In this document: positions 19,811 through 30,837 of the stretch, one piece after another
Numbering within the stretch: the first letter of the stretch is position 1
Layout: each line of letters starts with the position of its first letter
Assembly: GCF_030816015.1 (NCBI RefSeq)
Contig: NZ_JAUSXN010000001.1
Coordinates: 2,604,001 to 2,668,000 of the forward strand
Reading direction: 5' to 3'
Source of the DNA: Pedobacter sp. W3I1
GTDB taxonomy: Bacteria; Bacteroidota; Bacteroidia; Sphingobacteriales; Sphingobacteriaceae
DNA: 64,000 bases
The notes under the pieces: generated by a model
Database searches by the model: none
What the model saw: only the letters and a program-made list of their open reading frames with translations
What the model was told of the DNA's origin: nothing
Program-made: the position numbers and the translations under genes

Positions 19811-20908
19811 TTAAATAATGCTTGCTTTGTTTCTTAAAAACTGATCGGCTAAAACGAGTGCTGCCATCGCCTCAACAATTACTACTGCTCTGGGTACCAC
19901 ACAAGGGTCATGTCGGCCTTTCCCTTTAATCTCCGAAGCTTCACCAGCTGCATTGATGGTTTGCTGGTTATGCATAATGGTTGCAACAGGCTTAAAAGCT
20001 ACTTTGAAGGTAATATCCATCCCGTTAGAAATGCCGCCTAAAATACCGCCGGCATAATTGGTTGTCGTTTTAAAAACTTTCGAATCGGCAGCTTTTGGCT
20101 GAGGGATATCATTGTGCTGAGATCCTCTTAATTCGCTTCCGGCAAAGCCAGAGCCATATTCGAAACCATGAACGGCATTAATGCTGAGCATGGCTTTACC
20201 TAAATCAGCATGCAATTTATCGAAAACAGGCTCACCTAATCCCGCAGGGCAGCCTTTTATTATGCAGCCTATTTTTCCGCCAACGGTATCGCCATCTTTT
20301 CTAACCGAATCAATAAACTCGATCATTTCGTGTGCAGTTGCAGGATCAGCACAACGCACAATATTCTCTTCTCTAATTTGCAATAAAGCTGATAAATCAT
20401 TGCTTTCTAAATTAGGAGCTTCTATTGTCCCTACTGAAGTTACATGTGCAAAAATTTCAATACCTTGCTGCTTTAAAAACAGTTTTGCAATTGCTCCAGC
20501 TGCTACACGGGCAGCAGTTTCGCGTGCAGAAGAACGACCCCCGCCACGGTGATCGCGGATGCCATATTTCGCATCATAAACATAATCGGCATGGCTAGGG
20601 CGGTAAACATCAAGATTATGACCGTAATCTTTTGACCGTTGATCTTCGTTCGGAATTAAAAGTGCAATAGGTGTCCCCGTACTTTTCCCCTCAAATACAC
20701 CCGATAAAATCTGAACGATATCGCTTTCTTTTCTTTGTGTGGTAATTTTGGATTGACCTGGTTTGCGTTTGTCCAGTTCCGATTGGATAAAATCCATATC
20801 GATATCCAATTGCGCCGGACAGCCATCAATAATTACTCCAATGGCTACGCCATGAGATTCGCCAAAAGTGGTGATACGAAATAGTTGTCCGAATGAGTTG
20901 CCTGCCAT
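19811..20908 (-). CDS. aroC: Chorismate synthase
   Basis: 365 residues, full length. It catalyses the last shikimate step, EPSP to chorismate, using reduced FMN. Signature segments are [15 protein letters not shown] near the N-terminus, [36 protein letters not shown], and GGISNGMDI later. It lies 88 nt downstream of aroA (EPSP synthase) on the same strand and is followed closely by the DUF1684 gene. The order aroA-aroC matches the pathway order. Confidence 0.97.
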
Positions 20909-20996: not shown

Positions 20997-22286
20997 CTAC
21001 TTGATACTAACATCAAATCCTGCTTTTTTCAAATCTTCCCAATAATACGGATAAGATTTTTCTACTACCTGCATTTCTTCAATTTCAACTTCGTTAATTA
21101 ATAGGGCAAGTGGTGCAAAAGCCATTGCCATACGGTGGTCCTCGTAGGTTGCGAAAGTGACTTTATCTGGAAAATGAAGGTTATCGGTATTTAAAGTATA
21201 AACCAGATTATCTTCTGTAAAAGTAACGCCTATTTTAGCTAATTCATTCTGAAGGGCTGCAATACGGTCTGTTTCTTTAATTTTTAATGTTTCTAAACCA
21301 GTGAAAGCCATGTTTTTGCCCAAAGCTGCTGCAATAACTACAATAGTTTGTGCTAAATCCGGACAGGTTTTTAAGTCTAAAACCTCTTTTGTATCTAAAG
21401 AAAGGCCTAAGTTGCTAATGGCAATGCCATTATCGGTTTTGCTGGTAGCAATGCCAAAAATCTTCATGATATTTTTGATCTGGCTATCACCCTGCAAACT
21501 CTTTTCTTTTAAAGCAGGTAAACTAATTTCTGCTTCATCAGCTAAAGCTGCAATACTATACCAATACGACGCTGCGCTCCAGTCGGGTTCTACAACCAAA
21601 GTGCCTGGTTTAAAAGCCTGTGGTTTAATGGAAATTGAATTTCCATTCCAGGAATGCGTAATGCCAACTTCAGCCAGCATATCTAAAGTCATATCTACAT
21701 ATGGCTTAGAAGTAAGCTCGCCTTCTATTTCTAAAGTTAAACCTTGAGGTAGGATAGGAGCAATCATCAGCAAGGCCGAAATATATTGACTGCTGATATC
21801 GCCTTTTATTTTAACTTCAGCGGTTTTTTGATTTAAAGGGCCAACAATATTCAATGGAGGGAAACCTTCTGCTTCTGCATAAGAAATATCTGCGCCAATG
21901 GTTTTTAAAGCCTGTGCCAAAATCCCAATAGGGCGCTGTTTCATTCGCTCGGTTCCGGTAAGTAAGAAATTACCATTTTTAGCTGAAAGATAAGCCGATA
22001 AGAAACGCATAGCGGTTCCGGCAGGGCCAACATCAACCAGTTCGGAGTTTGCAGTTTTTAGTTTGGAGTCTTCTCCCAACTCACTACCTTCAACGCCCAA
22101 CTTATTCAGGATGCCATTTAAAGTTACCGTATCGGCAGCATTGGAAAGATTTTCAACTTTAACCAGTTGCTTGCTTAAAGCGCTAATAATTAAAGCCCTG
22201 TTGCATTCGCTTTTCGAGCCTGTTAATTGGATTTCCGTATTAATATTCTTGGTTCCTTTAAAAGAAACTAAGGCGTTTTTCGACAT
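20997..22286 (-). CDS. aroA: 3-phosphoshikimate 1-carboxyvinyltransferase (EPSP synthase)
   Basis: 429 residues. It joins phosphoenolpyruvate to shikimate-3-phosphate. Motifs: KSECNRALI (shikimate-phosphate site), GPAGTAMRFLSAYL (PEP loop), SSQYISALLM, SKPYVDMTL, IKETDRIAALQ, and YEDHRMAMAFAPLAL. Upstream (22287-22858) is a repeat-rich gap of 572 nt, so a separate promoter for aroA-aroC is likely rather than continuous transcription from the DAHP synthase gene. Confidence 0.96.
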   Translation of the reverse strand: MSKNALVSFKGTKNINTEIQLTGSKSECNRALIISALSKQLVKVENLSNAADTVTLNGILNKLGVEGSELGEDSKLKTANSELVDVGPAGTAMRFLSAYLSAKNGNFLLTGTERMKQRPIGILAQALKTIGADISYAEAEGFPPLNIVGPLNQKTAEVKIKGDISSQYISALLMIAPILPQGLTLEIEGELTSKPYVDMTLDMLAEVGITHSWNGNSISIKPQAFKPGTLVVEPDWSAASYWYSIAALADEAEISLPALKEKSLQGDSQIKNIMKIFGIATSKTDNGIAISNLGLSLDTKEVLDLKTCPDLAQTIVVIAAALGKNMAFTGLETLKIKETDRIAALQNELAKIGVTFTEDNLVYTLNTDNLHFPDKVTFATYEDHRMAMAFAPLALLINEVEIEEMQVVEKSYPYYWEDLKKAGFDVSIK

Positions 22287-22551
22287 TTTATTCTGTGTTT
22301 ATTCTTAAATGTAAGTGTCAGATGGAAACATCTGACACCACATCATATTTGTTTTTTATATCATACTGAGTTAGTCGAAAACTATCGTAAGTCCCTTCGA
22401 CAGGCTACCATTGACAGACTCCAAAGAACGGTCGTCTTTCCCGCGCAGGCGGGAACCACGAAGTGCTCAGCGAAGCTAATCTTAAAGCTTATGGCATTAC
22501 GATTATTCATAAGCTTTCTTTTCTTCAAAGGCATTCATGAGCACTACGTGG

Positions 22552-22736
22552 TTCCCAATCAATTTACCAATGACAGATTCTGAAATTCGCGTCATCTCGA
22601 CCGAAGCAAATGCGGAGTGGAGAGATCTTTGGACTATGTTTAAAAGATCTCTCCACTGCGGTCGAGATGACGATTTATCTTACCTGTCTCCCAACTCCTT
22701 CGTTTTTTGCTAAAAAACTGACCTCTGGGAATGACG
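22552..22736. repeat. 185-bp dispersed palindromic repeat, copy 1
   Basis: The gap 22287-22858 holds REP-like sequence and no gene. Positions 22552-22736 form an imperfect palindrome with outer arms GTCATCTCGACCG and CGGTCGAGATGAC. A near-identical copy lies inverted at 32425-32608, including the flanks AATTCCCAATC-like and GTCAGTTTTTTAGCAAAAAA. Upstream (about 22435-22455) a further short palindrome CCCGCGCAGGCGGG is present. Confidence 0.85.
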
Positions 22737-22858
22737 ATTCTTCGCGGATTATCATCTATTAAAATCCCTGTAATTTATATTGATTTTTATACAATAAATT
22801 AACCCTCAGGATGACACCACTGTTAAACTTAGCTTTATGCTTTCAGCTTTAACCTCAA

Positions 22859-23998
22859 CTACGCTTTAACTTCAGTATGTTGCTCGGCAGCAATGCCTTG
22901 TTCAGCTTTGCCAGCATTCATAATTTCAGTTTGCTTACGGATTGATTCACCATGCACCAATTCTAAGAATTTCTCAGTAAAATTTAAATCTAATTTTAAA
23001 GCTTTTGCAAAAGCATGACCTTTTTTAATGATGGCATCCCAGCGGTTAACCTGTAAAATAGTTACCTGGTTATCGCGTTTAAACTCACCAATTTTCTCTA
23101 CAACAGCCATACGCTCACCCAATTTTTGTAATAAGATGTCATCAATTTTATCGATTGATTTACGTAGGTCAGCTAATTTATCAGCGAAAGCCTCGTTTGG
23201 TGCTTCTGGCTCACGAACGGTTAAACGATCAACCAATTCAGCTAAAGCAGCAGGGGTAACTTGTTGTTTAGCATCAGTCCAGGCAACTGAAGGATCTACG
23301 TGAGATTCGATCATTAAACCTTGCATGTCTAAATCTAATGCTTTTTGAGAAATGTAAGGGATTAACTCACGATTACCACAAATGTGACTTGGATCGTTGA
23401 TGATCGGTAATTCAGGGCAAAGTGTTTTTAACTGGATAGCAAGTTCCCACATTGGTTCGTTACGGAAAGAACTTTTCTCGAATGATGAGAAACCGCGGTG
23501 GATAGCACCAATTTTAGTAATTCCTGCACCGTTAATACGCTCAATTGCACCAATCCATAATTGTAAATCAGGGTTAACCGGGTTTTTGATCAATACCGGA
23601 ACATCATGGCCTTTTAAAGCATCCGCAATTTCCTGAACAGTGAAAGGATTTACAGTAGAACGTGCACCAATCCAAAGGATATCTACACCAGCTGCTAAGG
23701 CTTCTTCAACGTGTTTTGCATTCGCAACCTCCACAGCCGTTGGTAAACCAGTTTCTGCTTTAGCACGTTTTAACCACTCTAAACCGATACTTCCGATACC
23801 TTCGAATTCTCCCGGACGAGTACGTGGCTTCCAGATACCAGCTCTTAATACCGATACTTTGCCGGTAGCAGCCAATAAATGCGCTGTTGTTAATAATTGT
23901 TCTTCAGTTTCTGCACTACAAGGACCAGAAATGATTAATGGTTCGTTGTTTACGTTTAACCAGGTGTTTAAGGGTTGGATGTTTAAATTAAGTTTCAT
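22859..23998 (-). CDS. Bifunctional DAHP synthase / chorismate mutase
   Basis: 379 residues with two domains. Residues 1-260 are a type I-beta-like DAHP synthase: PLIISGPCSAET, RAGIWKPRTRPGEFEGIG, ILWIGARSTVNPF, PVLIKNPVNPD, IGAIHRGFSS, and INDPSHICGNRE. Residues about 265-355 are an AroQ-type chorismate mutase (ADKLADLRKSIDKIDDILL through VNRWDAIIKK). It makes the first shikimate intermediate and converts chorismate to prephenate. It lies 128 nt downstream of pheA on the same strand, so it is probably governed by the leader attenuator at 24975-25152. Confidence 0.95.
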   Translation of the reverse strand: MKLNLNIQPLNTWLNVNNEPLIISGPCSAETEEQLLTTAHLLAATGKVSVLRAGIWKPRTRPGEFEGIGSIGLEWLKRAKAETGLPTAVEVANAKHVEEALAAGVDILWIGARSTVNPFTVQEIADALKGHDVPVLIKNPVNPDLQLWIGAIERINGAGITKIGAIHRGFSSFEKSSFRNEPMWELAIQLKTLCPELPIINDPSHICGNRELIPYISQKALDLDMQGLMIESHVDPSVAWTDAKQQVTPAALAELVDRLTVREPEAPNEAFADKLADLRKSIDKIDDILLQKLGERMAVVEKIGEFKRDNQVTILQVNRWDAIIKKGHAFAKALKLDLNFTEKFLELVHGESIRKQTEIMNAGKAEQGIAAEQHTEVKA

Positions 23999-24126: not shown

Positions 24127-24960
24127 TTATACTTTATCGTTCTTTTGATATTCTCCTAATATGTTGAAGTTCGATGTATATTTTAATGCCTTTCTAATGG
24201 CTTTATCATATTTTTCTGTACTTGGCCATTCTAAATCGACGTAAAAGTAATATTCGTTTCTTTTACCTAAAACAGGCATAGATTGTATTTTTGTTAAGCT
24301 TACATCCTGTTCAGCAAAGATGTTTAAAACTGTGGCCAATGAGCCTGCTTTGTGCCCAACCTGAAAACAGATAGACGCTTTGTTTATTTTCTTTCCTTCG
24401 TCTGTTTTGTCTTTTTTAAGAATTAGAAAGCGGGTGTAATTTTTCTTGTTCGATTCTACACGGCGTTCTAAAATGTTCAAACCGTAAAGTTCTGCAGCCA
24501 AACTGTTTGCAATGGCCATGGTATCAGTTAATTGCTCTTCCTGAATCCGCTTTGCGCAGGCAGCAGTATCGTTGCTCTCTACAATTTTAATCTGTGGATA
24601 ATCGTAAAAGAAATCGATACACTGGCGGATGGCGATAGGATGAGAGGTAACCACTTTAATATCCTCAAACTTTACACCAGGTAGCGCCATTAAGTGCAAT
24701 TGGATAGGCAGGTAAACTTCGCCTACAACTGAAAAACCATAATCGCGGATCAGTGTATAGTTTGGTAATAAGCTACCCGCAATAGAGTTTTCGATAGCCA
24801 TTACTACGAAGTCGGCATCGTTTTTCTCTAATTTATCGCAGGTTTCTTTAAAAGAATTACACTCTACAGTTTCGATATCATTACCAAAGAATTTGTAGGC
24901 GGCTTCTTCGTGGAAAGATGCTTTAATACCCTGAATTGCTACTCGTTTTGTCGTTTCCAT
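24127..24960 (-). CDS. pheA: Prephenate dehydratase
   Basis: 277 residues, cytoplasmic. The catalytic domain (about 5-185) has GIKASFHEEAAYKFFG at the start and the NYTRFLIL motif carrying the conserved Thr-Arg-Phe. An ACT domain (about 198-270) with KAGSLATVLNIFAEQDVSLT and SMPVLGKRNEYYFYVDL gives phenylalanine feedback inhibition. The product phenylpyruvate is transaminated to phenylalanine. A terminator lies 15 nt before its ATG with an aromatic leader peptide upstream, so the gene is very likely attenuated. Confidence 0.96.
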   Translation of the reverse strand: METTKRVAIQGIKASFHEEAAYKFFGNDIETVECNSFKETCDKLEKNDADFVVMAIENSIAGSLLPNYTLIRDYGFSVVGEVYLPIQLHLMALPGVKFEDIKVVTSHPIAIRQCIDFFYDYPQIKIVESNDTAACAKRIQEEQLTDTMAIANSLAAELYGLNILERRVESNKKNYTRFLILKKDKTDEGKKINKASICFQVGHKAGSLATVLNIFAEQDVSLTKIQSMPVLGKRNEYYFYVDLEWPSTEKYDKAIRKALKYTSNFNILGEYQKNDKV

Positions 24961-24974
24961 TTTTGCGTTAAAAC

Positions 24975-25007
24975 AAAAAAGTCCCGGCTGTTTGCCGGGA
25001 CTTTTTT
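24975..25007 (-). terminator. Attenuator terminator in front of pheA
   Basis: A perfect 14-bp hairpin: AAAAAAGTCCCGGC, a 5-nt loop, GCCGGGACTTTTTT. It lies downstream of the leader ORF (25043-25105) and directly upstream of the pheA ATG at 24960. On the minus strand the segment GCCGGGGC at the end of the leader ORF is complementary to the first arm (GTCCCGGC), giving a competing antiterminator of about 8 pairs including one G-U. This is an attenuator rather than a simple end of transcript. Confidence 0.9.
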
Positions 25008-25042
25008 ATACATTTTAATATTGTTATATATCTTTTTGCATA

Positions 25043-25105
25043 TTAGCCCCGGCTCTCACTAAAATAGTAAAAGTAACCAAAGTAATATGTGTTTGTAATT
25101 TGCAT
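25043..25105 (-). CDS. Phe/Tyr-rich leader peptide of the pheA attenuator
   Basis: An ORF of 20 codons plus TAA: MQITNTYYFGYFYYFSESRG. Residues 7-15 contain five Tyr and three Phe with a single Gly, a composition expected only of an attenuator leader peptide. An A-rich stretch precedes the ATG, as in many Bacteroidota genes. The ribosome should stall at these codons when charged tRNA-Phe or tRNA-Tyr is scarce. The stop codon follows directly on GCCGGGGC, the antiterminator segment, so a ribosome completing the peptide would cover it and let the terminator form. Confidence 0.88.
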   Translation of the reverse strand: MQITNTYYFGYFYYFSESRG

Positions 25106-25122
25106 TTCTTTTTTTGTTGAGC

Positions 25123-25152
25123 CAAATGTAGTAACAAAATTTAATTTGTCAA
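25123..25152 (-). promoter_or_regulatory. Promoter of the pheA leader transcript
   Basis: On the minus strand TTG (25152-25150) is followed by 19 nt and then TACATTTG (25130-25123). This matches the Bacteroidota -33/-7 promoter pattern (TTG, 19-21 nt, TAnnTTTG). Transcription should start a few nucleotides past 25123, some 15 nt before the leader ATG at 25105. Confidence 0.8.
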
Positions 25153-25273: not shown

Positions 25274-25593
25274 TTATAAACTATCAATTATATTCTGGAT
25301 ATCTTTTTTCGTAATGGTTGCTTCTTCAGACTTGTCATAAATGTAAATCATATTGATTTCATTTTCAACTTGTAAGTAGGTGATCACTCTATAACCACCA
25401 CTTTTTCCTTGCTCTTAACAGCAAGTCTTATTTTAAAAATACCATTACCTAGGTCTGTCCCAGTTTTTGGATTTTCTAATAATATTGATTCTAATTGAGA
25501 TAAATCGTTAATTAATGATACGTGTTTCTTTTTTAAATGCTTTGCTTTTTTAATAAAAATAGGAGAATATATAATTTTCATTTCCTCCATCAT
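25274..25593 (-). pseudogene. RelE/ParE-family toxin gene disrupted by a frameshift
   Basis: The frame opens at 25593 (MMEEMKIIYSPIFIKKAKHL) and stops at 25384 after KIRLAVKSKEKVVVIE. The -1 frame continues as GKSGGYRVITY and ends DKSEEATITKKDIQNIIDSL at 25274. One missing base in the run AGCAAGGAAAAAGTGG would restore the family pattern IRLAVKSKGKSGGYRVITY. RelE/ParE toxins either cleave mRNA at the ribosome or poison gyrase. The paired antitoxin gene overlaps it by 4 nt. Sequencing error in a homopolymer tract cannot be excluded. Confidence 0.75.
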
Positions 25594-29619: not shown

Positions 29620-30837
29620 TTATGTCTTAAAATCTATTTCCAAGGCCCCCAATTTTAGCTGGTTGTTATTACCTTTTCCCATACTTAGCTTTTCAGGATT
29701 GTTGAGGAATTTGTACAAGCTAATGTAGCTCATCATGTGTAGCCTGATAATTGACCTTAAATTGGAAAATGCCCATTTTCTTTTGAGCTGTACCTGTACA
29801 ACTTTTATCAGCAGATCGGATATAAAAGCACACCATATCTGGATTTTGATTGCGTTTTCATTGTCCCCAAGGAAATATTTAAGGGGAAAGTTCTGCTTTA
29901 CCCTTTTGAAGAGCACCTCGATGAGCCAGCGCTTTTTGTATATTTCTGCGATCTCTTCGGGCAACAGGGAGAAATTGTTGGTTAGGAATTCGAATGTTCG
30001 TCCCGATTCCGCATCAAAAAAGGTAACCATACGTACGTTCAGCCTGATCTTTTCCCGTTGCGTACGCGTACCCTGTATCAATATCCGGTCATTCTGCACA
30101 CCTGCCGCCATGCTCTGCAGGGTCAGTTCCCTACTTTCAACGATTTCATATCTTGCATCTTTTTTCTGTCTGGTGACAAAAAAAGCGCCCTGTTTTCCAA
30201 TCCTCTCATACTCCGAATAATCCACATAACCTTTGTCAAAAACAATAAATGACCCTTCTTCAAGGTCTATCTCTTTCAGGAAGGGCATGTCATTCGCACT
30301 AGCGGCAGTAAAACTGATTTTTAAGGGCACATGCTCAGCTGCACCGATCAGGGTGTGAACCTTGATCCCGCCCTTTCTTTTTCCGTTCATCTTCCCAGGG
30401 CTGGGCGCATCGAGTATCCGTTGGAAAAGCGTGATGGTGGATGAATCCGCAATAAAGAGCTTATCATACTGTTTTAATCGGCTGTCCGGTAAAAGATGCC
30501 GGTGCCGTTTGTATAAAAGCTCGTAAATCTGTTGAAAAACATCGAATGGCCTTTTACTGTTAGCATCGCACAGGGTACTTCTTGCCGGGGGGCTGCTTAT
30601 ACCCAAATGAAGAAGCTTGGAGTGGCATGCGTGCATCCCGCTGACCACTTCACGGGTGCTGGTGCAATTGTTCAAGCTACAATAGAGCATTGTAACCAAG
30701 TGGCAAAAAGTATCAAAATACTTATAATAATGGTCGTAACCGCCACGGCGTGACAATGACCTCACAGAATTCCGGTCGATCAAACTTAATAGCTGGTTTA
30801 AGATCGGCTGTCCGGTAAAAAATGTATTTTTGCTCAT
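29620..30837 (-). CDS. IS4-family transposase
   Basis: 405 residues, apparently intact. The N-terminal DUF4372-like region starts FFTGQPILNQLLSLIDRN. The catalytic DDE residues are plausible in LFIADSSTITLFQ, in SFIVFDKGYVDYSEY, and in IYKKRWLIEVLFKRVKQ, where the Glu belongs to the family Y-(2)-R-(3)-E-(6)-K pattern. It catalyses cut-and-paste transposition of the surrounding 1383-bp element. Confidence 0.93.
   Translation of the reverse strand: MSKNTFFTGQPILNQLLSLIDRNSVRSLSRRGGYDHYYKYFDTFCHLVTMLYCSLNNCTSTREVVSGMHACHSKLLHLGISSPPARSTLCDANSKRPFDVFQQIYELLYKRHRHLLPDSRLKQYDKLFIADSSTITLFQRILDAPSPGKMNGKRKGGIKVHTLIGAAEHVPLKISFTAASANDMPFLKEIDLEEGSFIVFDKGYVDYSEYERIGKQGAFFVTRQKKDARYEIVESRELTLQSMAAGVQNDRILIQGTRTQREKIRLNVRMVTFFDAESGRTFEFLTNNFSLLPEEIAEIYKKRWLIEVLFKRVKQNFPLKYFLGDNENAIKIQIWCAFISDLLIKVVQVQLKRKWAFSNLRSIIRLHMMSYISLYKFLNNPEKLSMGKGNNNQLKLGALEIDFKT

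Follow-up and report, generated by a model that had tools for sequence, protein, structure and literature searches.

How might Pedobacter sp. W3I1 tie transcription of pheA, and of the gene for DAHP synthase-chorismate mutase behind it, to the supply of aromatic amino acids? The question arises from a short minus-strand segment (25152-24975) of the window, the whole 64,000-nucleotide stretch of DNA analyzed here, which an earlier note made from the sequence alone had described as a complete attenuator. Ribosome-mediated attenuation of pheA is textbook knowledge in Escherichia coli, where the pheL leader carries Phe codons and no Tyr codons. The conservation and folding analyses reported below support the attenuator reading and, as far as sequence can tell, a ribosome-mediated transcription attenuator very probably controls both genes.

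The leader region and the operon behind it

On the minus strand the segment holds, in this order, a promoter, a leader ORF, an antiterminator lying over the last codons and the stop, a terminator and then pheA, with all four elements present as the earlier note had placed and described them. The promoter is of the Bacteroidota type (25123-25152, minus strand; TTG-N19-TACATTTG, full string TTGACAAATTAAATTTTGTTACTACATTTG) and can also be read as TTGACA-16-TACATT. The 20-codon leader ORF (25043-25105, minus strand; MQITNTYYFGYFYYFSESRG) has an A-rich start region and no Shine-Dalgarno sequence at its start. Its codons 7-15 (25061-25087, minus strand) spell YYFGYFYYF, which bears out the claim of eight Tyr or Phe among nine consecutive residues. 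The protector strand, segment 1 (CATATTA in codons 6-8; 25083-25089, minus strand), was drawn from the RNAalifold consensus of 47 genus sequences, and the antiterminator strand, segment 2 (GCCGGGGCT in codons 18-20 and the stop; 25045-25053, minus strand), from its pairing with the 5' arm of the terminator. Directly 3' of the leader stop is a conserved TATGCA (25037-25042, minus strand), whose alternative partners are segment 1 or, in an extension of the antiterminator, TGTATA (25007-25012, minus strand). An A/T-rich spacer separates TATGCA from the intrinsic terminator hairpin, AGTCCCGGC-AAACA-GCCGGGACT followed by six T (24975-25002, minus strand; arms 25002-24994 and 24988-24980, T run to 24975). 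The first arm of this terminator does pair with the antiterminator, as had been proposed: GCCGGGGC (25053-25046), within the last leader codons AGC CGG GGC, forms 8/8 pairs with GTCCCGGC (25001-24994), one of them G-U.

Downstream of the terminator are pheA (24127-24960, minus strand; Pfam PF00800, E 9e-56), which encodes a prephenate dehydratase with an ACT domain (weak ACT match), and the DAHP synthase-chorismate mutase gene (22859-23998, minus strand; PF00793 and PF01817). Pfam matches and synteny also place here aroA (EPSP synthase; 20997-22286, minus strand), found at this position in most Sphingobacteriaceae loci, and aroC (chorismate synthase; 19811-20908, minus strand), and both are probably part of the same transcription unit as pheA. 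No DAHP synthase other than this DAHP synthase-chorismate mutase was found in the genome: type II enzymes (PF01474) had no match there, and the other PF00793 match looks KdsA-like, its sequence being judged by eye. Thus, the operon controls entry to the Phe, Tyr and Trp pathway. The leader and this gene co-occur across 80 named loci, with both present in 54, neither in 18 and mixed cases in 4 and 4 (Fisher p 1.2e-10, uncorrected for descent).

Several other features of the window lie around the operon. aroA is separated from the DAHP synthase-chorismate mutase gene by a gap of ~570 bp (22287-22858) containing sequence that resembles inverted repeats; it follows much closer behind in most of the Pedobacter and Sphingobacterium loci. 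Just upstream of the promoter (25274-25590, minus strand), a RelE-type toxin-like gene, seemingly split over two frames, is preceded by a small antitoxin-like ORF, both recognized by eye. Farther upstream are two copies of the Flavo-1 RNA (RF01705; 31007-31308, minus strand) and, near them, an ORF of 405 aa that looks transposase-like by eye (29620-30837, minus strand).

Conservation and codon content of the leader

The earlier note had staked its reading in part on conservation of the leader in related genomes. We collected pheA matches from 47 genomes of the genus (the window's own included), from family samples and from class samples, and read their upstream regions; the loci are related by descent, so that the counts and p-values given here overstate their independence. 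Leader and terminator are kept in every genome of the genus with a pheA match and in most Bacteroidia whose pheA is accompanied by DAHP synthase-chorismate mutase. Leader and terminator together precede pheA in 47/47 genomes of the genus that have a pheA match and in 41/48 family samples, where the leader alone is found in 48/48; the seven remaining family-level loci lacked a terminator by the finder used. Class genomes outside the family have both elements in 19/55 cases, and the leader alone in 32/55 when 6 aromatic codons in 10 are required or in 36/55 when 5 are. The scan of named loci (leader and terminator in 53/80) located the leader in Pedobacter, Mucilaginibacter, Sphingobacterium, Parapedobacter, Cyclobacteriaceae, Chitinophaga, Allomuricauda and some Bacteroidales. 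Among the 29 best-scoring phylum-level loci examined, nearly all of them outside the class Bacteroidia, none had a leader. Aromatic leaders do stand before pheA in two metagenome-assembled genomes labelled as lying outside Bacteroidia, one of KSB1 (L230) and one of Chlorobi (L227), and may reflect misbinning or transfer.

The promoter travels with the leader as well. In 37/47 genus loci and 79/138 other loci its motif was found within the 70 nt that precede the leader, compared with 0.2% of background windows, and its distance to the leader ATG is mostly 16-18 nt. Terminators are common before operons, and the hairpin could in principle be a constitutive terminator of upstream transcription that happens to follow an unrelated short ORF or microprotein gene, with no regulation at all. 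A conserved promoter between the upstream genes and the leader speaks against this, as do the tracking of the operon by the leader and the covariation of the terminator 5' arm with the antiterminator (described below), and we consider a constitutive terminator highly improbable.

The arrangement is not a chance product. Dinucleotide shuffles of the upstream regions gave at least 8 aromatic codons in 10 in 0/2040 cases and at least 6 in 1.9%, and 11/3000 random real windows combined a score of 6 or more with a downstream terminator; true pheA leaders may lie in some of these windows. Further, a degenerate pattern of the sensing run matches the 6.4 Mb genome at a single place.

Codon content points to what the leader would sense. 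Among the 44 distinct genus sequences most variation of the run falls at third positions (entropy 0.40, compared with 0.11 and 0.18 at the other two), the substitutions are mostly synonymous and the peptide is nearly constant there. Such constancy within the genus would also be expected of nascent-peptide arrest, perhaps together with a free aromatic amino acid in the manner of TnaC. Outside the genus, however, the order of the run drifts (TYYFGYFYYF, AYWFFGFFYF, AYFYGYYFYF, TYFFFYFYYF), and length and C-terminal residues change just as freely while Phe and Tyr are kept; one member carries an extra residue within the run and others end in ..YQ or ..FR. Drifting order with constant Phe/Tyr content favors the sensing of charged tRNA over peptide arrest, which we regard as very unlikely. 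Both Phe and Tyr are present in all 149 distinct leaders, where each makes up 37.2% of run residues, and 45 of the 149 have Trp codons too. Control over pathway entry by the operon would account for the Trp codons of these relatives. The codons thus indicate that the attenuator likely takes a dual input of Phe and Tyr, to which relatives often add Trp. The same attenuator could instead respond to a single amino acid (Phe, or Tyr), with the other codons as passengers, as suggested by aroR of Corynebacterium glutamicum, whose Phe-Tyr-Phe leader responds to Phe and not to Tyr (review PMC11802643). The occurrence of both residues in every leader, in equal shares, and a product pathway that serves Phe and Tyr alike make a single input rather doubtful.

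Alternative structures of the leader RNA

The earlier note had also called for RNA folding. The fold of 25125-24960 is far more stable than expected (z = -6.4, with 0/200 shuffles equally good), and folding supports three mutually exclusive structures, the protector, the antiterminator and the terminator. In the protector hairpin, which appears both in the minimum free energy fold and in the alifold consensus, CATATTA in codons 6-8 pairs with TAATATG at the stop and after it. A family alignment built without reference to structure was scored for paired cells, and the antiterminator and terminator pairings exceeded each of 200 shuffles. The terminator has 98.4% of cells paired and double changes at 8/9 pairs. 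The antiterminator has 94.5% of cells paired, against a shuffle maximum of 93.0%, a narrow margin because one motif is common to most sequences, and double changes at 6/9 pairs. The protector strand has 90.4% of cells paired and modest covariation support. The extended antiterminator, formed by pairing of TATGCA with TGTATA, reaches -22.9 kcal/mol (z -6.7) and has weaker support in the family alignment.

The antiterminator was also compared locus by locus. Taking the best duplex per locus, and searching shuffles likewise, we counted at least 5 G-C pairs in the duplex of 133/160 loci, compared with 1.6% of shuffled spacers. Compensated variants illustrate how the two strands change together: GCCAGGAC with GTCCTGGC; leader codons CAG GAC matched to GTCCTGGC in two loci (L037, L045); leader codons CGG GGC matched to GCCCCGGC in another (L036); and CGAGGC matched to GCCTCG in two more (L217, L221). 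When arms were swapped among the loci with unusual arms, the mean number of G-C pairs fell from 4.9 to 4.1. Moreover, in three loci (L143, L145, L172) the leader stops earlier and AGCCGGGACTRATATG is still present after the stop, which shows the element to be retained for a role in the RNA.

These features are those of a classical attenuator. The antiterminator excludes the terminator and overlaps the region under a ribosome at the leader stop, the leader ORF is rich in codons for the end products, an intrinsic terminator precedes the first gene, the protector hairpin includes sensing codons and a promoter motif lies just upstream of the leader. A structured 5' RNA before a biosynthetic operon could also be a metabolite- or tRNA-binding RNA (riboswitch or T-box). 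The conserved feature here is instead a coding run, and no riboswitch, T-box or known leader family of Rfam reached its gathering score: Phe_leader (RF01859) scored 26.1 bits against a gathering score of 55, Thr_leader gave a weak leader-type match of 29.2 bits, below threshold, and Bacteroid-trp (RF01692) had no match in the window or in the bacterium's own genome. A ligand-binding RNA is therefore extremely improbable. Additions to the earlier description are the conserved protector hairpin, the extension of the antiterminator, the Trp codons of relatives and candidate His and Trp leaders elsewhere in the genome.

Predicted mechanism and place among known attenuators

In the mechanism that we propose, the transcript would begin ~10 nt upstream of the leader, with a ribosome following the polymerase, on the assumption that transcription and translation are coupled in Bacteroidota. 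When Phe-tRNA or Tyr-tRNA is scarce, the ribosome would stall in codons 7-14 and break the protector hairpin formed by codons 6-8 with the stop and UAUG. This would leave GCCGGGGC free to capture the terminator 5' arm, and transcription would continue. With a good supply, the ribosome would reach the stop codon and cover GCCGGGGC and UAUGCA, allowing the terminator to form. If the leader were left untranslated, the protector hairpin would hold the antiterminator and the terminator would again form. Ribosome footprint geometry is compatible with these outcomes: a stall at codons 7-14 should leave 25053-25045 free, and a ribosome on the stop codon should cover all of it. At codon 15, the last Phe codon, a stalled ribosome would already overlie part of the antiterminator, and the earlier codons should therefore matter most.

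A close parallel in design is pheL-pheA of E. coli (RF01859): there too a leader peptide is encoded ahead of pheA, the protector, antiterminator and terminator overlap, and the logic is that of ribosome stalling. Unlike pheL, the Pedobacter leader codes for Phe and Tyr (and often Trp in relatives), and the bifunctional chorismate mutase-prephenate dehydratase of E. coli (PheA) is replaced here by a separate prephenate dehydratase and a DAHP synthase-chorismate mutase. The multivalent attenuators of ilvGMEDA and thrABC likewise bring together in one leader the codons of several end products from a branched pathway, in their case for other amino acids and in other taxa. The nearest tested analogue is aroR-aroF of C. 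glutamicum, where a Phe-Tyr-Phe leader precedes a DAHP synthase gene (PMC4046766, PMC11802643) and an effect of Phe, but none of Tyr, has been reported (PMC11802643); this organism is an actinobacterium, and its leader has three aromatic codons as opposed to eight here.

Within the phylum, a structured and transcribed 5' element has been described before pheA in Flavobacterium psychrophilum, kept in Flavobacteriaceae and absent from Rfam, in a study that also gives clues for leader-peptide attenuation before amino-acid operons (PMC9723704). The gene and the phylum are the same, and the passages of that study on the element give no leader sequence or mechanism; it is likely equivalent to the Pedobacter leader. 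The earlier note's remark that such control is less described in Bacteroidota thus stands insofar as documentation is sparse and needs amending insofar as these passages already report the F. psychrophilum element. Bacteroid-trp, a predicted cis-regulatory RNA motif of Bacteroidetes (PMC2864571), is linked to trp genes by its name and is a different RNA family from the Pedobacter leader. Short ORFs in long 5' UTRs of Bacteroides thetaiotaomicron have been noted as reminiscent of leader peptides. Some attenuators were reportedly predicted in Bacteroidetes/Chlorobi by Vitreschak in 2004, and part of the present finding may for that reason be in print already. What we add is the anatomy of the element, how widely it occurs, the covariation, its association with DAHP synthase and a likely input of two or three amino acids.

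The same genome contains two more candidate leaders. One, a His leader (MNLTLNHHLHLHHRR; L238:1226-1273), lies shortly before the hisG frame (hisG at C1:4933658), with no terminator after it by a simple finder. The other, a Trp leader (MINNIHTWLWQSNSNELRWLRMNKI; L240, reverse complement, C1:6329924 region), lies with a strong terminator shortly before trpE and has no Rfam match. Together they suggest that this organism makes general use of attenuation.

The pheA leader is a sharply defined and broadly conserved element predicted to regulate aromatic synthesis in Bacteroidota, where the regulation of amino-acid pathways is poorly known, and an attenuator of this kind implies that transcription and translation run close enough together in these bacteria to permit attenuation. 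A natural Tyr to Trp swap at codon 8 and a natural separation of leader stop and antiterminator provide ready-made tests of the mechanism. It is conceivable, though we hold the idea tentatively, that the element acts across Bacteroidia as a pan-aromatic integrator, in which any shortage of Phe-tRNA, Tyr-tRNA or, in lineages with Trp codons, Trp-tRNA would relieve termination of the operon and one short RNA would set flow through the whole pathway. If so, aromatic synthesis in the phylum would be controlled mainly by this element, which Rfam does not catalogue.
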